From positions 1-64,000 of the forward strand of contig CANIOW010000006.1 of the NCBI GenBank assembly GCA_947469285.1: a stretch of DNA of 64,000 nt, read 5' to 3'. The position numbers and the translations under genes were made by a program. Source of the stretch: Gammaproteobacteria bacterium. GTDB taxonomy: Bacteria > Pseudomonadota > Gammaproteobacteria > Steroidobacterales > Steroidobacteraceae. Shown in pieces: positions 35,532-43,839 of this stretch. Each line of letters opens with the position of its first letter. Positions within the stretch are counted from its first letter, which is position 1. The notes below the pieces were generated by a model. That model saw only the letters and a program-made list of their open reading frames with translations, was not told the origin of the DNA and ran no database searches.

Positions 35532-36338
35532 CTACTTTCCCTGCCACGTCGGCGAGCGCTTCTCCGCGAAGGCGCGGGCGCCTTCCTTCTGGTCCTCGCT
35601 GGAGTAGAGGCGGTCCACGGTGGGCAGCTTGCGCTTGGTTACCAGATCGAAGGCCTGCTGCACCGGCAGGTGCGCGGTCTCGCGATGGATTTCCTTGATG
35701 CACGCAAACACCAACGGTGGACCTGCCGCCAATTGGTCAGCCAGTGCCCGCGCACGCGGCATTAGTTGCGCTGCCGGCACCACCTCGTTGACCAACCCCC
35801 AATGCTTCGCCTCGGTCACATCAAAGCGCCGACCCGTAAACAACATTTCCATCGCCACATGGTGCGGAATGCGCCGCGGCAGTTTGATGGTGGCCGCATC
35901 CGCCACCGTGCCGGAGTTGATCTCGGGCAACGCGAACGTGGCGTGCTCGGCGGCGATGATGATGTCCGCCGAGATCATCAGTTCGAAGCCGCCGCCGAAG
36001 GCGATGCCGTTGACGGCCGCGATGACCGGCTTGTTCAGCCCGGGCAGCTCCTGCAGGCCCCCGAACCCACCCACGCCATAGTCCGAATCGGGCGCTTCGC
36101 CCTCGGCCGCGGCTTTCAGATCCCAGCCGGGACAGAAGAACTTCTGTCCACCACCGGTGAGGATGGCCACGCGCAGTTCCGGGTCGTCGCGGAAGGCCGC
36201 GAACACCTGCCCCATCACGCGGCTGGTAGCGGCGTCGATGGCGTTGGCCTTCGGCCGGTCTAGCGTCACTTCCAGCACGGCACCGCGGCGTTCGTAGCGC
36301 ACGGGCGAATTCGCGGGCAGTTCGGGCAGTGTGTTCAT
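35532..36338 (-). CDS. Enoyl-CoA hydratase, CaiD-like (carnitinyl-CoA dehydratase family)
   Basis: Crotonase-fold enzyme of 268 aa. It carries the oxyanion-hole segments PGWDLKAAAEG and GIAFGGGFEL, and FALPEINSGTVADAA, with the look of the CaiD/crotonobetainyl-CoA hydratase group. The likely reaction is hydration of crotonobetainyl-CoA to L-carnitinyl-CoA. It is the last gene of the minus-strand operon, its start overlapping the ligase stop by 4 bases. ATG 36338 is chosen; the open frame further upstream lies inside the ligase gene. Substrate is inferred from context. Confidence 0.83.
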   Translation of the reverse strand: MNTLPELPANSPVRYERRGAVLEVTLDRPKANAIDAATSRVMGQVFAAFRDDPELRVAILTGGGQKFFCPGWDLKAAAEGEAPDSDYGVGGFGGLQELPGLNKPVIAAVNGIAFGGGFELMISADIIIAAEHATFALPEINSGTVADAATIKLPRRIPHHVAMEMLFTGRRFDVTEAKHWGLVNEVVPAAQLMPRARALADQLAAGPPLVFACIKEIHRETAHLPVQQAFDLVTKRKLPTVDRLYSSEDQKEGARAFAEKRSPTWQGK

Positions 36339-38374
36339 AGCGGCCTCATCCTGATCAGGGCATCCACGGCCACCGCCCCGTCGGCGGTCACCAGCAAGGG
36401 GTTCACGTCCACTTCCTCGATGCGCCCGGGGTGCGCGTCCGCAAACGCCGCCAGCGCGTGCACGGCCCGCACTACCGCCTCGGCATCGCCGTGCCGGCCG
36501 CGGAACCCGGTGACGAGCGGCCAGCACTTAAGCCCAGCCAGCGCCTCGCGAATTTCCGTCTCCGTAGTGGGCAGCAGCAGGGTTGCGGTGTCCTTCAGCA
36601 GTTCCGTCAGGATACCGCCGGCACCCACCACCAATGCGGTGCCGAACTGCGGGTCACGCGTCAGGCCGAGAATCAGCTCCGCCACGGCGCCGGTCACCAT
36701 GCGCTCCACCAGCACTTCGGGCGCGAGTGTCGCGAGACGTGCGGCAGCAGCAGCCACCTCTTTCGCCGAACGCAGGTTCAGCGCCACGCCGCCGGCTTCG
36801 GTCTTGTGGGCAATGGCGGTCGAAGACACCTTCAGCGTCACGGGGTAGCCAAGGCGTTCCGCCACGGCAACCGCTTCCGCCGCCGCGCACACCTGCCCCT
36901 CGGGCACCACGAGGCCAAAGGTGGCGAGCCAGTCCTTCGCAGCCTTCTCGGAAAGCACCACGGGTTCACCGGCCCCCACTGCCATCTGGCCGAGCACCGG
37001 TGGCGCTTCGGCCTTCGCCCAGTTTCGGCCAATAAACGCCGCTGCCTCGAACGCAGTGAGCGCATCGTCCAGCCCCATCATGGGCGCCACGCCGGCCGCG
37101 GCGAGCTCGTGCGCCAAATCCAGCGGCATGCCTTCATGCAACGTAGCCACCACCGCGGCCCGCGCTCCCGTGTGGCGTGCCGCCCGCACCAGAGCCCGCG
37201 CCGCCACCACCCAGCTGGCCGGGTTCGTTGCCGGGTGGCTCGGCGTGTCGAGAATGAGCATCGCGACGTCGTAGCCGCCGGCCAGCACCGCGCTATAGGT
37301 GGCTTCAAGTTTTTCGGGCTGGCCCCAGATGAAGGTGTGGTAGTCGAGCGGGTTCTCCACGGACACGTATTCATTGAGCGTGGCGGCCACGCGTTCACGA
37401 GTGGCGGGGTCGAACGCTGGGAACGACACGGCGCGATCCAGCGCCATGTCCGCCGCCAGCGCGGCCTCGCCACCGGAGCAGCTCATAGATACCAAGCGGC
37501 TATCGGCGATGGCGCCGCCGCAGTGCAGGAACTTCAGCGTCTCCACCAGCGCGGACACGGACTTCACACGCGCCACGCCATAGCGCCGGAACAGCGCGTC
37601 ATAGAGGGCGTCGGCACCGGAGAGTGAGGACGTGTGACTCAGGGTGACGCGGGCGCCCTGCTCGGAGCGCCCGGTCTTCAGCGCCACGATGGGCTTGTGC
37701 AGTTCGCGGGCCACCGCGGCGGCGCGCGCAAAGGCCGGCACATCGCGTAGGCCTTCGATATGCAGACCGATGGCGGTAATGCGCGGGTCTCGCGCGCAGC
37801 TTTCCACCAGCTGCGCCATGTCCACATCCGCCTGATTACCAATAGCACAAGCGAGCGCCACGGGCAGGCCACGCATGGTGGTGACGAGGTTGCAGGCCAT
37901 ATTGCCCGACTGCGTGATGATGGCCACGCCGCTCTCGCCGGGAACGATGCCGTGCTCGTCGGGCCACAGCGCGACGCGGGCCAGGCCATTCACGAAGCCG
38001 TAGCAGTTAGGCCCCATCAGCGGGATGCCGGCGGCGGCGGCGAGCAGCTCGTCCTGCAGCCCGGCGTCACCGGTTTCAGCAAAGCCGCTGGCGTAGATGA
38101 CCGCGGCCTGCAGACCTTTAGCGCGCAGCGTGCGCAGTACGTCGATGGTGGGTTCGCGCTTCACCGCAATGAACGCAGCGTCAATGGCCCCTTCCACGTC
38201 GCTGGCGGACTTCACTGTGGCCACGCCACCCAACTGCTCGCGTTTAGGGTGCACCGCCCAGATCTTGCCGGTGAAGCCCAGGCCCAGCGTCTTGCGGATG
38301 GCGATATCGCACTCAGCGCCACCCACAAAAACGATGGAGCGCGGATGCAACAGGGGCGTCAGGTCACGAGCCAC
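36335..38374 (-). CDS. ADP-forming acyl-CoA ligase (acetate-CoA ligase family, fused subunits)
   Basis: 679-aa NDP-forming acyl-CoA synthetase. A CoA-binding domain (about 1-130) and succinyl-CoA-synthetase-like domains with the phospho-His motif TLSHTSSLSGAD (H247) are followed by an ATP-grasp domain (about 460-679). This is the Acd-type fusion of alpha and beta subunits. In this operon it would activate gamma-butyrobetaine or carnitine to the CoA thioester, a job done by AMP-forming CaiC in enterobacteria. It ends overlapping the hydratase start and begins 2 bases after the dehydrogenase stop. Acyl specificity is inferred only from neighbours. Confidence 0.87.
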   Translation of the reverse strand: MARDLTPLLHPRSIVFVGGAECDIAIRKTLGLGFTGKIWAVHPKREQLGGVATVKSASDVEGAIDAAFIAVKREPTIDVLRTLRAKGLQAAVIYASGFAETGDAGLQDELLAAAAGIPLMGPNCYGFVNGLARVALWPDEHGIVPGESGVAIITQSGNMACNLVTTMRGLPVALACAIGNQADVDMAQLVESCARDPRITAIGLHIEGLRDVPAFARAAAVARELHKPIVALKTGRSEQGARVTLSHTSSLSGADALYDALFRRYGVARVKSVSALVETLKFLHCGGAIADSRLVSMSCSGGEAALAADMALDRAVSFPAFDPATRERVAATLNEYVSVENPLDYHTFIWGQPEKLEATYSAVLAGGYDVAMLILDTPSHPATNPASWVVAARALVRAARHTGARAAVVATLHEGMPLDLAHELAAAGVAPMMGLDDALTAFEAAAFIGRNWAKAEAPPVLGQMAVGAGEPVVLSEKAAKDWLATFGLVVPEGQVCAAAEAVAVAERLGYPVTLKVSSTAIAHKTEAGGVALNLRSAKEVAAAAARLATLAPEVLVERMVTGAVAELILGLTRDPQFGTALVVGAGGILTELLKDTATLLLPTTETEIREALAGLKCWPLVTGFRGRHGDAEAVVRAVHALAAFADAHPGRIEEVDVNPLLVTADGAVAVDALIRMRPL

Positions 38375-38376
38375 GC

Positions 38377-39540
38377 CTAACCGCCCAGCGGCCGGAGCAT
38401 CGCTCGCGAAATAATGTGACGTTGAATCTCCGACGTGCCTTCCCAGATGCGCTCAACCCGCGCATCACGCCAGATACGCTCCAGCGGTAGGTCAGACATC
38501 AAACCCATGCCGCCATGAATCTGAATCGCCTCATCCGCCACAAAAGCGAGCATCTCGGTGGCTTTGAGCTTGGCCATGGCCATGTCCATATCGGTGGCCA
38601 ATTTCTGATCGAACTTCCAGGCCGCCTCAAAGGTGAGCAACTCTGCCGCCTTCAATTCCATGGCCATGTCCGCCAGTTTGAACGACACGCCCTGGAACTT
38701 TCCGATCTGTTGGCCGAACTGTTGGCGATCTACCGCCCACTGCTTGGCATGCTCCAGCGCGCGTTCGGCGCGACCGAGACAGGTGGCCGCCACCTGCAAG
38801 CGCGTGGCGCCCAGCCAATCGTTGGCTACCTCGAAGCCCTGATGGAGCTCGCCGAGAATCTGCGACTGGTGCACCCGACAGTCGCTGAACTCGAGGATGC
38901 TGTTGTGATAACCGCGGTGAGAGACATTCTTGTACCCCGGACGGATCGTGTATCCCGGCGTACCCTTGTCAATGATGAACGCCGTAATCAGCTTTTTCTT
39001 GCCACGCGGCGTCTCTTCCTCGCCGGTAGCCGCGTAAAGAATCACGAAATCGGCTTCGTCAGCATGACTAATGAAATGCTTGGTCCCGTTGATGATGAAA
39101 TACTCACCATCCCGACGCGCGTTAGTCTTCATGCCACGCACATCAGAACCGACGCCAGGCTCCGTCATCGCCATGCAGTCGGACCGTTCGCCGCGAACCG
39201 CCGGCAGCAGATATTTTTCTCGCTGCTCACCCGTACAGGCCATCAAGATGTTCGATGGCCGTGCCACGCACGTCCAGTGCAGCGCGTAATTTGCCCGACC
39301 AAGCTCGCGCTCGTAGAGTAGCCAAGTGAGGGTGTCGAGCCCGGCACCGCCCACCTCGGCAGGCATGTTGGCGGCGTAAAGCCCCGCCTCGATGGCCTTG
39401 GCCTTGATGGCGTCACGCAGCTCCGGGCGCAGCACGCCGGACTCTTCGACTTCTGCCTCATGTGGATACAGTTCATTGACGACAAAATCCCGGGTCGTCT
39501 GGATGATGAGCTGCTGCTCTTCGGTCAATGCGAATTCCAT
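38377..39540 (-). CDS. Acyl-CoA dehydrogenase
   Basis: FAD-dependent dehydrogenase, 387 aa, with the standard N-terminal helices (MEFALTEEQQLIIQTTRDFV), MTEPGVGSD FAD loop, RQQFGQQIGKFQ and C-terminal IHGGMGLMSD. The catalytic base is Glu367 in RIWEGTSEI. In context it would oxidise gamma-butyrobetainyl-CoA to crotonobetainyl-CoA. ATG 39540 fits the family start. The electron-transfer flavoprotein genes are not nearby. Confidence 0.9.
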   Translation of the reverse strand: MEFALTEEQQLIIQTTRDFVVNELYPHEAEVEESGVLRPELRDAIKAKAIEAGLYAANMPAEVGGAGLDTLTWLLYERELGRANYALHWTCVARPSNILMACTGEQREKYLLPAVRGERSDCMAMTEPGVGSDVRGMKTNARRDGEYFIINGTKHFISHADEADFVILYAATGEEETPRGKKKLITAFIIDKGTPGYTIRPGYKNVSHRGYHNSILEFSDCRVHQSQILGELHQGFEVANDWLGATRLQVAATCLGRAERALEHAKQWAVDRQQFGQQIGKFQGVSFKLADMAMELKAAELLTFEAAWKFDQKLATDMDMAMAKLKATEMLAFVADEAIQIHGGMGLMSDLPLERIWRDARVERIWEGTSEIQRHIISRAMLRPLGG

Positions 39541-39560
39541 GCGGGATTTCCTGTGCTGAA

Positions 39561-41048
39561 TCAGAGTGCGGCGGGCTTTTTCCGCAGCTGCATCACGCGA
39601 CCCAACCCGGATGGCGCAGCCAGCCGCTGATGCGCTTCCCAAATCGCCGACAAGGCCTCGAACAGCGCTGGTGCCATCGCGGTAACCTTGCTGGCCGCCT
39701 GGTTGACGTGTAGCTGCATGATCTCGTTGGTGGCAACCAATTCGCCGGTGACCGCGTGCAGCATGCGGTGGAACAGGTGCAGACGTTTTTCGTCGCAACC
39801 GACCAGCTGTGTTTCAATGCGAAATTTCTCACCCACCTTCATTTCCTGAAAGTAATTAAGGTGGGTCTCGGCCGTGAAAAAGGTATTGCCGGCAGCGCGG
39901 TACGCTTCGTCATCGCCGAGATAACGAAACAACGCATCCAAGCCATCGCCGAAGGCCACCAAGTAAGCCGAATCGGTCATGTGCCCGTTGTAATCCAACC
40001 AGGCAGTGAGCACCTCGCCATCCCACAAATGCAACGGCGCACTCACGTCATCACCTGCCACCCAGCGGCGAAAGCTGGCGTTGGATTTGGCTTCTTCGCG
40101 GGCCAGTACCTGACCGGAGCCAATACCGTGCTGCCGAAACAGCTTCATCATGTCCACTAAGATGTCGTTACGCTTGGACTCCAGCTGCGCCACGGTGCGC
40201 CCCGCCGCCTGCGCATCACAACCTTCTACGAGCCGCTGTTCCAGCGCTGCATTCCACTTGGGAAACGGCAGGTCAGTCCACGGCAACTCCAGGGTCGGAT
40301 CGAATTGTTTGATGAAATCGCGCATGCCACCTGGGCCACCGGCGACGTGGTAAGTCAGAAATGACCCCATGAACGCCCAGCGCATACCAGCCGAGTAAAC
40401 AATGGCGTCGTCGATATCGCCCGTGGTGCCGATATCCTTGTTCAGAATATGCAATGCCTCACGCCACAAGGCTTCTTGCAGGCGGTCACAAATGTAACCA
40501 TCAATCTCTTTCTTCAGCCGCAGGACATGCATCCCGATGGATTCAAAGTACTGGCCAGCGCGGTCCATTGCCCCAGCCGAGGTGCGTTCACCCGGCACCG
40601 TTTCCACCAGCGGCAACAAGTAAACCGGATTGAACGGATGGCCAATGATCACCCGCTCCGGATGGCGGCAAGCGGACTGTAGCCGCGTGGGCAAAAAACC
40701 CGAAGAGGACGAGGCGATAATGACGTCGGGGCGGGCCACGGCGTCGATGTCCCGAAACAGCTGTATTTTTAGCTCTTCTCGCTCAGGTGCAGCTTCATGT
40801 ACAAAGTCCGCTGTTGCGGCCATTGCGGCCAGATCCGTGGTGAAAGTCAGCGTACCCGGCGCGCCGACTTTACCGAGTAGTCGCGCCATAGAGGGCCAGG
40901 CCACAGCGATGGCCGCCCGCAACCGTGCTTCTGCGGCGGGAGAGACATCGTAGGCGATAACATCAAACCCGCGAATCAGCAGTCGAGCAGCCCAACCAGC
41001 ACCGATCAGTCCGGTGCCCGCAATGCCGACTGTCTTAATGGGTGTCAT
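39561..41048 (-). CDS. L-carnitine dehydrogenase fused to a hotdog thioesterase
   Basis: 495 aa. Residues 1-320 are a 3-hydroxyacyl-CoA-dehydrogenase-like L-carnitine dehydrogenase with Rossmann motif GIAGTGLIGAGWA (8-20), ASSSSGF and IGHPFNPVYLLPLVE. From about 340 there is a 4-hydroxybenzoyl-CoA-thioesterase-type hotdog domain (LDYNGHMTDSAYL near 352). The first half would oxidise L-carnitine to 3-dehydrocarnitine. In characterised carnitine pathways the thioesterase half hydrolyses betainyl-CoA made by the partner cleavage enzyme. It lies 3 bases after the BKACE gene. Confidence 0.9.
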   Translation of the reverse strand: MTPIKTVGIAGTGLIGAGWAARLLIRGFDVIAYDVSPAAEARLRAAIAVAWPSMARLLGKVGAPGTLTFTTDLAAMAATADFVHEAAPEREELKIQLFRDIDAVARPDVIIASSSSGFLPTRLQSACRHPERVIIGHPFNPVYLLPLVETVPGERTSAGAMDRAGQYFESIGMHVLRLKKEIDGYICDRLQEALWREALHILNKDIGTTGDIDDAIVYSAGMRWAFMGSFLTYHVAGGPGGMRDFIKQFDPTLELPWTDLPFPKWNAALEQRLVEGCDAQAAGRTVAQLESKRNDILVDMMKLFRQHGIGSGQVLAREEAKSNASFRRWVAGDDVSAPLHLWDGEVLTAWLDYNGHMTDSAYLVAFGDGLDALFRYLGDDEAYRAAGNTFFTAETHLNYFQEMKVGEKFRIETQLVGCDEKRLHLFHRMLHAVTGELVATNEIMQLHVNQAASKVTAMAPALFEALSAIWEAHQRLAAPSGLGRVMQLRKKPAAL

Positions 41049-41051
41049 GAC

Positions 41052-41945
41052 TTAAGCCCGTGCCGGCAGTTCGAGTAATTCACGCGCCTCGGCGGGCGTG
41101 GCCACTTTGGAGCCGAGTAGCTCGATGACTTTAACCGCCTTGTCGACCAGCGTGCCGTTGGAAGCAAACACCCCTCGCTCCAAATACAGGTTGTCTTCCA
41201 GTCCGACGCGGACGTGGCCGCCCAGCAGCGCCGCTTGCGCAACGGCGCGGAACTGGTTTTGGCCGATAGAAAATGCCGCCCAGATAGCATCCTTGGGCAA
41301 TTGCGCCTTTTGGTAGGCCATGGTTTCCGGATCGTACGGCGCGCCCCAGGGAATGCCGAGACATAACTGAAACAACGGACGACCATCGATCAGACCTTCC
41401 GCCACCATCTGCTTGGCGAACCAAAGATTGCCTGAATCGAAGATCTCCATCTCCGGCTTCACGCCATAAGATTTGATCAGTTTGGCCTGCTCACGTAACT
41501 GCATCGGCGTCATGACCACTATCCCGTTGCCGTCGCCAAAGTTGAGCGAACCGCAGTCAATCGTGCAGAGGTCCGGGCGGATCTCTTTGACATGCTCCAA
41601 GCGCTCCAAGGGACCGACAAGGTCAGTGAACTCTTCACGAAATGCACGCGGCGTTTCACCCTCGCCAATCCACAGATCGCCGCCCATGCCGGCGGTGAGG
41701 TTGATGATTAACTCTCGATTCTGGTCACGCACACGCTCCACCACCTCACGGTAGAGATGTGTGCCGCGGCAGCCCTTGCCCGTCAAGGGGTCGCGAACGT
41801 GTATGTGCACCACCGCCGCCCCCGCCGCCGCCGCTTCCAGCGAAGCATTAGCGATCTGCTCGGGGGTTACCGGCACGGCCGGATGCTTGCCAACGGTGTC
41901 GCCGGCGCCGGTGACAGCGCAGGTGATGATAATTTTCTTGTGCAT
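41052..41945 (-). CDS. 3-keto-5-aminohexanoate cleavage family enzyme (BKACE), likely dehydrocarnitine cleavage
   Basis: 297-aa TIM-barrel beta-keto acid cleavage enzyme. [16 protein letters not shown], the zinc-binding HIHVRDP (H47, H49), [10 protein letters not shown] and [11 protein letters not shown] are family signatures. BKACE enzymes act on a beta-keto acid plus acetyl-CoA; beside a carnitine dehydrogenase the likely substrate is 3-dehydrocarnitine, giving betainyl-CoA and acetoacetate. ATG 41945 has a GGAGG ribosome site. It is the first gene of the operon, divergent from the cdhR-like regulator. Confidence 0.9.
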
Positions 41946-42000
41946 GAGAATCCTCCAGTGACCGGCAGAGTACGGCACCCAGCCACCCATATAGTTGATT

Positions 42001-42031
42001 TTTTTCGCCATTAAGTGGATATTTTCCGCCA
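42001..42031. promoter_or_regulatory. Direct repeats between the BKACE operon and its regulator
   Basis: TTTTTCGCCA (42001-42010) and TTTTCCGCCA (42022-42031) are direct repeats 21 bp apart, two helical turns, as expected for an AraC-family activator. On the minus strand the proximal repeat lies just upstream of a TATATG -10-like hexamer (41993-41988), so it would cover the -35 region of the operon promoter. Confidence 0.6.
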
Positions 42032-42970
42032 ATGGCTACTTACGACGTCGTCTTCATTCTGGTCCCCCGGTTCTCGATGATTGCGCTTTACGGCGCACTG
42101 GAGCCGCTGCGTGTTGCCAACCGGTTTGCCGGCGAGGTTTTTTCCTGGCGGTTCATTTCAGCCGAGGGGCAGCCCGTCGCAGCTTCGAACGATATTCCCG
42201 TTTCCGTCAGTGGCGACCTCCAGGCCATTGGCCAGCCGGCCATGGTCGTGCTGTCGGCCAGCTACGAGCATGAGCGCGGCCAGACCCGTGCGCTGCGCAA
42301 CACTTTGCGCCGCCTTGCACGAGAGCAGGTCACGCTGATTGGGATCGATACCGCTCCATTCCTGCTCGCCGAGGCGGGCGTGCTGGATGGGCACCGCGCC
42401 ACCTGCCACTGGGAGAGTCTGCCGGGCTTCCGCGAGAGTTACCCACGCGTGCGGGTTACGCAGTCGTTATATGAAATTGACCACGGTCGAGTCACCTGCG
42501 CTGGCGGCTCTGCCGCCATCGACATGATGCTGGCGCTCATCGAAAACCTGCTTGGCAAGGCACTTGCCGTCATCGTGGCCGATCAGTTACTGCATTTTCG
42601 CGAATCCGGTGAACGCTTTCAGGGCCGTGCGCCGGCCCGAGCGCGGCATGGCACGGACGACCCGCGACTGTTGTCGATTATCGCCGCCATGGAGGACACC
42701 ACCGAAGAACCCATCACGGCCGCTGCATTGGCTGCCATCGGCGGGTTGTCGCTGCGCCAAATGGAGCGGCTGTTCCATGACCGACTCGGACAGCGGCCCA
42801 TAGGCTATTACCGCCAGTTGCGGCTCGAAAAAGCCGCGCGCTTACTGCGTTACTCACACTTGAGCGTGCGCGATGTCTCGCTGGCTTGTGGGTTCTCGTC
42901 GCTGGCGCCATTTTGTCGGGCATTTCGCGACTGGCATGGCGCCACACCCAGAACCTTCAGGCGCTCCTGA
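42032..42970 (+). CDS. GlxA/CdhR-type AraC family transcriptional regulator
   Basis: 312 aa: an N-terminal DJ-1/PfpI (class I amidotransferase-like) domain (about 1-170) and a C-terminal AraC helix-turn-helix (about 215-310) with [20 protein letters not shown] and [14 protein letters not shown]. It resembles CdhR, the activator of carnitine dehydrogenase genes. It is divergent from the carnitine operon with only 86 bases between starts. There is no good ribosome site before ATG 42032 and the distal operator repeat reaches the start codon, suggesting autoregulation or a later start. Confidence 0.9.
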
Positions 42971-43038: not shown

Positions 43039-43395
43039 ATGGAAATCACACGACTGCTCCGCCTGAACGACACTGCCCCGGCAGTCGAAGAGTATTTTAT
43101 CGCGCCGGAGAAGCTGTTGGAGGGCAACCCACTCCAGCAAGTGTGGCTACAGTACACGGACCAGTCTGGAAAATTCTTTGCCGGCCTCTGGCGCAGTGAA
43201 CCAGGTCGCTGGTCGATTCATTACACCGAAGAAGAGTACTGCGAGCTACTGACAGGGGTGAGCATCATTACTGACACCCATGGGCTTTCCACCACACTGC
43301 ACCCCGGCGACCGCTGGATACTTCCACGCGGCTTTACCGGCACCTGGGAAGTGGTAGAAACTAGCAGCAAGCGCTTTGTCATCTATGAACCCTAA
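43039..43395 (+). CDS. Cupin domain protein (DUF861-like)
   Basis: 118-aa small beta-barrel protein. GRWSIHYTEEEYCELLTG and LHPGDRWILPRGFTGTWEV match the DUF861 cupin group related to ureidoglycine aminohydrolase. Metal-site histidines are sparse, so catalysis is uncertain. ATG 43039 is preceded by GCGAGGG. It lies 68 bases after the regulator on the same strand; whether it belongs to betaine metabolism is unknown. Confidence 0.82.
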   Translation: MEITRLLRLNDTAPAVEEYFIAPEKLLEGNPLQQVWLQYTDQSGKFFAGLWRSEPGRWSIHYTEEEYCELLTGVSIITDTHGLSTTLHPGDRWILPRGFTGTWEVVETSSKRFVIYEP

Positions 43396-43419
43396 ACACC
43401 CAGCCGAGCATTGCCCGCC

Positions 43420-43839
43420 ATGACACCAGAAGCTCATCTCGCGATTGTGCGCCACTGGATACAGATGGCAGAGGCGGGGTTCATCGGTGACTTCACCGAA
43501 GTCTTTTCCACCAACTACGCCGGGCATTTGGCTGGGCGCATTCATCTGGACCTAGAAGCGCTTAAGCAGACTGAGCTGGGGTTTGGTGTGTCGTTCACGG
43601 GCACCACACGCGTCATCGATGAGTTATGGGCCAGTGGTGACCGGGCGGTCATGCGCATCACGACGCGCGCTCACCACACCGGCGATTTCCGCGGCCTGGC
43701 CGCTACCGGCCGAGCGATTGTCTTCACCGCCATCGTCATTTACCGCTTTGAGAACGGCAAGATTGCCGAATCCTGGACCGAACTCGACCTGGCCGGACTG
43801 TTGCAGCAACTCACACCGGCAGTGGCCGGGACAACCTGA
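43420..43839 (+). CDS. SnoaL-like / ester cyclase family protein
   Basis: 139-aa NTF2-like fold protein. AEGG-type SnoaL features appear as FIGDFTEVFSTNYAGH, ELWASGDRAVMRITTRAHHT, GRAIVFTAIVIYRFENGKI and AESWTELD. These proteins range from polyketide cyclases to proteins of unknown function; no substrate can be named. ATG 43420 is preferred to an in-frame TTG at 43411. It starts 24 bases after the cupin gene. Confidence 0.82.
   Translation: MTPEAHLAIVRHWIQMAEAGFIGDFTEVFSTNYAGHLAGRIHLDLEALKQTELGFGVSFTGTTRVIDELWASGDRAVMRITTRAHHTGDFRGLAATGRAIVFTAIVIYRFENGKIAESWTELDLAGLLQQLTPAVAGTT

Follow-up and report, generated by a model that had tools for sequence, protein, structure and literature searches.

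The question raised by this locus is whether one compact gene cluster of a steroidobacteraceal gammaproteobacterium could carry gamma-butyrobetaine and carnitine all the way down to glycine betaine. The cluster occupies positions 35532-42970 of a stretch of 64,000 nucleotides from contig CANIOW010000006.1 (assembly GCA_947469285.1; hereafter the window) and, as judged from its open reading frames (ORFs), comprises five genes on the minus strand and a regulator gene that diverges from them on the plus strand (Table 1). The five co-directional neighbours, namely a BKACE, a carnitine dehydrogenase-thioesterase fusion, an acyl-coenzyme A (acyl-CoA) dehydrogenase, an ADP-forming ligase and an enoyl-CoA hydratase, are all present, and it is very probable that they form a catabolic operon for gamma-butyrobetaine and carnitine, leading to glycine betaine and controlled by a CdhR-type regulator. 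Gene content, order, context, residues and a repeat in the control region are read from the sequence, and the substrates, the order of the reactions and the inducer are inferred from characterised relatives.

Table 1. Features of the proposed gamma-butyrobetaine/carnitine operon (positions in the window)
Feature	Position	Strand	Length and domains
CaiD-like enoyl-CoA hydratase, proposed crotonobetainyl-CoA hydratase	35532..36338	-	268 aa; ECH_1 229 bits
Single-chain ADP-forming acyl-CoA ligase, proposed gamma-butyrobetaine:CoA ligase	36335..38374	-	679 aa; CoA_binding_2, Succ_CoA_lig, ATP-grasp_5
Acyl-CoA dehydrogenase, proposed gamma-butyrobetainyl-CoA dehydrogenase	38377..39540	-	387 aa; Acyl-CoA_dh N/M/1
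Carnitine 3-dehydrogenase fused to hot-dog thioesterase	39561..41048	-	495 aa; 3HCDH_N + 3HCDH + 4HBT_2, one chain
BKACE, proposed 3-dehydrocarnitine cleavage enzyme	41052..41945	-	297 aa; PF05853 312 bits
GATase1-like AraC-family regulator, divergent from operon	42032..42970	+	312 aa; DJ-1_PfpI + HTH_18
Direct repeat, 21-bp period, in the regulator-operon gap, proposed CdhR-type operator	41995..42031	-	copies 42016-42031 and 41995-42010

The gene order, the gaps of -4 to 20 bases and the divergent regulator, all of which formed part of the original prediction, are borne out by the ORFs and their Pfam domains. With the starts chosen here, the intergenic distances from BKACE to hydratase are 3, 20, 2 and -4 bases, the starts of BKACE (41945) and the regulator (42032) are 86 bases apart, and none of the six genes contains an internal stop. 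The hydratase was taken to begin at the ATG at 36338 (a longer GTG ORF, to 36527, would overlap the ligase) and BKACE at an ATG (the listed TTG ORF extends to 42032), while the ligase starts with GTG and the acyl-CoA dehydrogenase with ATG. The fusion is present in one copy in its own genome (3.1 Mb, 53 contigs); the other three matches there, at E 4e-14 or weaker, align with no more than 204 query residues at 27-31% identity and sit in open frames of 707-723 codons.

In the proposed pathway, the ligase would convert gamma-butyrobetaine, ATP and CoA to gamma-butyrobetainyl-CoA, the acyl-CoA dehydrogenase would oxidise this ester to crotonobetainyl-CoA, and the hydratase would add water to give L-carnitinyl-CoA. 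The thioesterase domain of the fusion would then release L-carnitine, and its dehydrogenase domain would oxidise L-carnitine, including free carnitine that can enter at this point, to 3-dehydrocarnitine. BKACE would react 3-dehydrocarnitine with acetyl-CoA to give betainyl-CoA and acetoacetate, and the thioesterase domain would act once more, on betainyl-CoA, to yield glycine betaine, which would then probably be demethylated by enzymes coded elsewhere in the genome. This scheme adds one step to the route originally proposed, namely that carnitinyl-CoA hydrolysis must precede the NAD-dependent step. The domain fused to carnitine dehydrogenase is the sole thioesterase domain within the operon. 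A stand-alone thioesterase adjoins BKACE, besides the fused one, in 20 of 51 loci drawn from the family (50 of the family and one, L044, from another family of the order), and the two could perhaps divide the hydrolysis of carnitinyl-CoA and betainyl-CoA between them.

A pathway of this kind has a precedent in Sinorhizobium meliloti. Work by Bazire et al. in 2019 on L-carnitine metabolism in that organism reportedly assigned five enzymes to seven steps from gamma-butyrobetaine to glycine betaine, with, by that account, the same set of enzyme types as in the window; the fusion would therefore perform three of the seven. S. meliloti SM2011_c01638 is described as oxidising carnitine and also converting betainyl-CoA to glycine betaine (PMC12482172), and S. 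meliloti BcoAB as forming gamma-butyrobetainyl-CoA from gamma-butyrobetaine, ATP and CoA (PMC8364193). The idea that one unit leads from butyrobetaine to glycine betaine is thus supported by the presence of all the genes, by their conserved context and by the S. meliloti reports; since it matches what is reported for S. meliloti, it coincides with an existing result. The window holds a well-preserved, complete-looking example of a kind of operon already studied in rhizobia, and knowledge of the pathway itself is unchanged.

The residues expected of these enzymes are largely kept. BKACE scores 312 bits against a PF05853 threshold of 24.8, and its His47, His49 and Glu250, which we take to be the metal-binding HxH...E residues, are invariant in 45 of 45 aligned rows (here and below, row counts include the window). 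In the fusion, dehydrogenase residues His137 (64 of 65 rows, with one gap) and Glu149 (65 of 65) and thioesterase residues Asp352 (59 of 65, with five gaps and one Glu) and His356 (60 of 65, with five gaps) are conserved, as are Glu119 and Glu139 of the hydratase (49 of 49 rows); these residues of BKACE, dehydrogenase, thioesterase and hydratase are presumably catalytic. The hydratase matches 73 NCBIfam families, among which the crotonobetainyl-CoA hydratase model NF002936 (CaiD) ranks first. The closest solved relative of the acyl-CoA dehydrogenase is the human-type short-chain acyl-CoA dehydrogenase 2vig. Residue 367 of the window enzyme, which we take to be the usual position of the catalytic Glu, is Glu within the genus, but 42 of 69 rows have Asp there, among them 26 of the 41 rows from one family group.

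The same genes recur together in distant lineages, as a comparison of the gene neighbourhoods of the fused dehydrogenase-thioesterase makes clear, and they do so in several arrangements. With a Sinorhizobium fusion as query, the best 80 of 592 confirmed stretches were read; these lie close to the query, nearly all being rhizobial (one is from Ameyamaea), and are not a sample of all bacteria. The five-gene order of the window, together with the divergent regulator, is found in 67 of the 80, that of Sinorhizobium medicae (L067) included, and the remaining 13 hold a partial set in the stretch read, some being ended by the contig. S. medicae is the sister species of S. meliloti; it and Ensifer sp. 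USDA 6670 served as stand-ins, no record among the 80 being titled S. meliloti. Of the 67 loci with the full order, 58 carry a gene for an ATP-binding cassette (ABC) transporter binding protein, eight lack it and one has the binding protein and two dehydrogenase matches; such a gene thus lies downstream in 59 of the rhizobial-type loci, in contrast to the window.

Among the loci considered by name, Rhizobium etli pRetIE4803d and R. johnstonii pRL10 show the same order, a divergent AraC/GlxA-type regulator and then an ABC transporter, and the R. johnstonii genes carry the annotations carnitine 3-dehydrogenase and carnitinyl-CoA dehydratase. In Paracoccus and Thioclava the five genes stand in a different order with ABC transporter genes nearby. 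Within the stretches read, Novosphingobium and a Burkholderia record have BKACE and fusion only, Ruegeria has the other three genes only, and Parasedimentitalea lacks fusion and hydratase. On the Parasedimentitalea plasmid (L064), BKACE, an ABC transporter, the acyl-CoA dehydrogenase and the ligase adjoin sarcosine oxidase genes. All five genes are found, in differing arrangements, in six of the ten named loci, from which set a Sinorhizobium numidicum locus (L060) was excluded (ligase and hydratase match there, with BKACE at 29% and dehydrogenases at 24-26%).

Closer to home, the six genes occur complete and in unchanged order in two genomes of the same genus, with identities of 77-94%, and a search of a third (75% complete) gave no fusion match at E <= 1e-40. 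At that threshold the fusion is found in 15 of 59 genomes drawn as relatives, own genome included. The acyl-CoA dehydrogenase is more widespread, occurring at E <= 1e-165 in 86 of 200 family genomes (own included), and its homologues in the 85 others are 71-93% identical; of 73 such matches not already in the set, 37 were added by taking every second row. Of the 51 family loci, 26 have the complete five-gene set within a single stretch. In the arrangement seen most often (18 loci), the fusion and acyl-CoA dehydrogenase face a unit of BKACE, thioesterase, ligase and hydratase; in 14 of the 73 rows of the whole locus comparison only the fusion and the dehydrogenase are visible in the stretch read. 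In the class, the ligase is found at E <= 1e-120 in 11 of 274 genomes (own included), and 11 class loci beyond that of the window have the acyl-CoA dehydrogenase in every case, BKACE, fusion and hydratase in eight each, and all five genes in five, absences in all these gene-set counts being partly due to loci that stop at contig ends. A control set of seven further stretches from the own genome (86,886 bases), selected for other betaine or 3HCDH genes rather than at random, holds none of the five genes above the same thresholds, with one regulator homologue. Because the five genes recur across lineages while the control stretches hold none, the gene set is not a chance grouping; it is a recurring unit of separable halves and no accident of this genome.

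In two loci of one family genus (L192 and L194), a regulator-like gene, which Pfam assigns to the BetI/TetR type in L192, separates the fusion from the acyl-CoA dehydrogenase, and the stretch read contains no ligase, hydratase or BKACE that exceeds the thresholds. L192 also contains a major facilitator superfamily transporter, and MttB-like and demethylase-like frames are seen by eye nearby.

The regulator is divergent from the operon in the two same-genus genomes also, and the 86-bp gap carries a direct repeat of period 21 bp, TGGCGGAAAATATCCA and TGGCGAAAAAAATCAA, with 13 of 16 bases identical, a value matched by one of 500 resamplings of the window gap (first-order Markov samples, not exact shuffles, made for this gap and the two same-genus gaps only). 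The two same-genus gaps have a period-21 repeat with 12 of 16 identical bases, and 15 and 14 of 500 resamplings were as good. Among periods of 17-26, 21 is also the best in R. etli, R. johnstonii, S. medicae, Sinorhizobium sp. M103 and locus L051 (10-12 of 16), and hence in seven of the eight gaps besides that of the window, although the ends of six of these gaps were set partly by match ends and several gaps come from close relatives and are non-independent. In Pseudomonas aeruginosa, CdhR binds direct repeats with GGTCGC half-sites, in which 6 bp and a 15-bp spacer add up to 21 bp (PMC5806209); the corresponding letters in the window are TGGCG, as against the GGTCGC of the P. aeruginosa site. 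No CdhR model is among the 25 NCBIfam matches shown of the 31 obtained with the regulator, and a separate, better GbdR match is held by the own genome (394 bits vs 253 for the operon regulator; cut-off 480). A CdhR-like role is reasonable for the regulator, the label being based on its architecture, its position and the repeat spacing, and by analogy with P. aeruginosa its probable ligand is carnitine or a related compound, with the direct repeat of 21-bp period as the putative operator for activation.

Several observations weigh against the assignment of this operon to gamma-butyrobetaine and carnitine breakdown. All six proteins fall short of the curated NCBIfam cut-offs: the best model of the fusion, carnitine 3-dehydrogenase NF005716, aligns with residues 1-487 at 504.2 bits vs a cut-off of 592, NF002936 gives the hydratase 339 bits vs 500, and the GbdR model gives the regulator 253 bits vs 480. 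The ligase and fusion are moderately similar to their rhizobial counterparts (41-48% identity), the window BKACE groups apart from those of the rhizobial operons, and the fusion has no resolved placement in a FastTree tree. Four of the ten named loci (L020, L021, L061 and L064) contain a partial set in the stretch read, and the Novosphingobium gap (L020) has a best period, within 17-26, other than 21. In addition, the S. meliloti ligase is named BcoAB and apparently has two chains, vs the single chain of the window; the ligase match is single-chain in two Sinorhizobium/Ensifer loci also.

Three other explanations have to be set against the proposed operon function. The CoA-dependent genes may serve carnitine and crotonobetaine only, the ligase activating either compound and the hydratase interconverting their esters as CaiC and CaiD do, with the acyl-CoA dehydrogenase as a CaiA-like reductase. 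The first rank of the CaiD model for the hydratase and the presence of the CaiA model (crotonobetainyl-CoA dehydrogenase, NF002885) among the dehydrogenase matches favour this view, but the CaiA model ranks only ninth (183 bits vs a cut-off of 540), no CaiB-like or CaiE-like gene is found among the six genes by Pfam, the operon proceeds to oxidative breakdown, and the S. meliloti ligase accepts gamma-butyrobetaine (PMC8364193), so that this explanation appears unlikely. Still less likely is that the acyl-CoA genes act on acyl chains, such as short acids from acylcarnitines, and merely adjoin the carnitine genes. In its favour, short-chain acyl-CoA dehydrogenases are the nearest relatives of the dehydrogenase, and the acid:CoA ligase superfamily that includes the ligase is broad; however, the same three genes accompany carnitine genes across many lineages and arrangements, the operon has no further hydrolase gene, and the ligase keeps aromatic residues at the onium-contact positions of the dimethylsulfoniopropionate (DMSP) lyase DddX.

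That enzyme (7cm9) is the best solved relative of the ligase, at 226.9 bits, which favours a third explanation, namely that the ligase is a lyase of the DddX type, with activation of DMSP or gamma-butyrobetaine followed by elimination of dimethyl sulfide or trimethylamine. The two proteins share the ADP-forming acyl-CoA synthetase superfamily, whose CoA-binding, succinyl-CoA-ligase-like and ATP-grasp domains and phospho-His are all found in the ligase. In DddX, His292 is the phosphorylated histidine, Trp391 and Phe435 are modelled as contacts of the sulfonium group, and Glu432 is the likely base for the elimination, its change to alanine having abolished activity (PMC8163506). In a phmmer alignment, counted as printed, His247, Trp350 and Trp388 of the ligase correspond to His292, Trp391 and Phe435, respectively; His247 and Trp350 are invariant in 53 of 53 ligase rows, and every one of these ligases has an aromatic residue (W, Y or F) at position 388. 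By contrast, Pro385 stands at the position read as Glu432, in a weakly aligned stretch, and none of the 53 ligases has Glu there (six have Asp and one has a gap). A DMSP-lyase function was rejected as the likely role because this position is not Glu, and a lyase would moreover leave the dehydrogenase and the hydratase without a role; this third explanation is therefore very improbable. The residues of the ligase fit a quaternary ammonium acid ligase that does not eliminate the amine, and the comparison with DddX offers a simple, testable idea of how onium-acid ligases differ from onium lyases.

The operon may not have a single origin. FastTree trees group the genus with its family for the acyl-CoA dehydrogenase, and for the ligase and the hydratase they place it as sister to two other genera of the family (support 1.0 and 0.97); BKACE joins a Burkholderia sequence (0.88), a link that returns in a careful BKACE tree (98/90). 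A single clade of the same-order loci was rejected for BKACE (10 loci, p-AU 2.5e-5; a group named after the first trees had been seen) and for the ligase (11 loci, p-AU 1.7e-55; a quick tree with long branches and a group named post hoc). These trees suggest different histories for the two halves of the operon. Three scenarios would fit, namely an exchange of the carnitine half within an existing operon, repeated emergence of the shared order, or an old order that has since been rearranged in other loci. It is tempting to speculate that the operon is modular, with a family-kept gamma-butyrobetaine half (acyl-CoA dehydrogenase, ligase and hydratase), a carnitine half (BKACE and possibly the fusion) from another source, and a joining or swapping of the two by which the rhizobial five-gene order came about without one origin common to all its parts, and that the operon-associated ligases are quaternary-ammonium-acid:CoA ligases sharing the onium pocket of DddX. 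This joint proposal is tentative and falls somewhat short of an even chance in our judgement, as the fusion lacks a clear place in the trees and the common-origin test is not decisive.

Among other known systems, the Escherichia coli cai operon, which is not known to include a BKACE or carnitine dehydrogenase, resembles the window operon in its CaiD-like hydratase and its chemistry on betaine CoA esters. It differs in that carnitine is the electron acceptor, gamma-butyrobetaine is the product and CaiF binds inverted repeats (PMC5806209). The caiX-cdhCAB-hocS operon of P. aeruginosa likewise leads from carnitine to glycine betaine and has a divergent GATase1-AraC regulator gene, cdhR, and a direct-repeat operator, whereas its described range covers carnitine breakdown and the hydrolysis of short-chain acylcarnitines (PMC5806209); that article mentions butyrobetaine once, concerning E. 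coli. In the bbu system of Emergencia timonensis, CoA activation of gamma-butyrobetaine also comes first and an enzyme resembling acyl-CoA dehydrogenases is used, but activation is carried out by CoA transferases and the dehydrogenase-like BbuA eliminates trimethylamine (PMC8364193). For Arctic SAR11, another arrangement that includes a gamma-butyrobetaine dioxygenase has been described (PMC12421898). A TauD-family protein (by Pfam) stands beside carnitine genes in one family genome (L214:3951-5087), and a 30%-identical match lies beside BKACE in a genome of the order (L044:12719-13735). Should these proteins be hydroxylases of gamma-butyrobetaine, the direct route would exist alongside the CoA route.

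Genes for transport and betaine demethylation are absent from the window, in agreement with the original prediction, and candidates are found elsewhere in the genome. A search of the own genome detected no OpuAC-type binding protein and one BCCT transporter match, on contig 34 (contigs 34 and 36 are loci L180 and L181), which lies near an MttB-family protein, an activator of the RACo type and a methylenetetrahydrofolate reductase. Contig 36 contains two MttB-family proteins, a FAD/GCV_T demethylase-like protein, a GbdR-like regulator and sarcosine oxidase alpha and beta subunits that score above their cut-offs. It is plausible that uptake and betaine demethylation are coded outside the window in this manner, and the MttB-family proteins and the RACo-type activator perhaps constitute a corrinoid demethylation system. 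The three MttB-family proteins score 270-307 bits vs a trimethylamine methyltransferase cut-off of 525. The locus widens the range of genomes in which aerobic use of gamma-butyrobetaine and carnitine can be expected, and it provides a compact, complete example with a regulator, a candidate operator and candidate demethylation genes in one genome.

The base composition of the locus is uneven. The G+C content at third codon positions (GC3) is 0.81-0.83 in the ligase and hydratase vs 0.67-0.72 in the three upstream genes, and overall G+C is 59-60% between 38 and 44 kb and again at 46-48 kb, with 61.6% in between, at 44-46 kb; this wider region includes a gene that we take, from its sequence, to be rho-like (58.9%). 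Recent acquisition, as judged by G+C, was considered and rejected: the low-G+C stretch extends past the operon, and the two same-genus genomes have no GC3 contrast (0.80-0.88 across the five operon genes, with 0.78 and 0.83 for the regulator). Downstream of the regulator, at 43039-43839, a Cupin_3 protein and a SnoaL-like protein are encoded.

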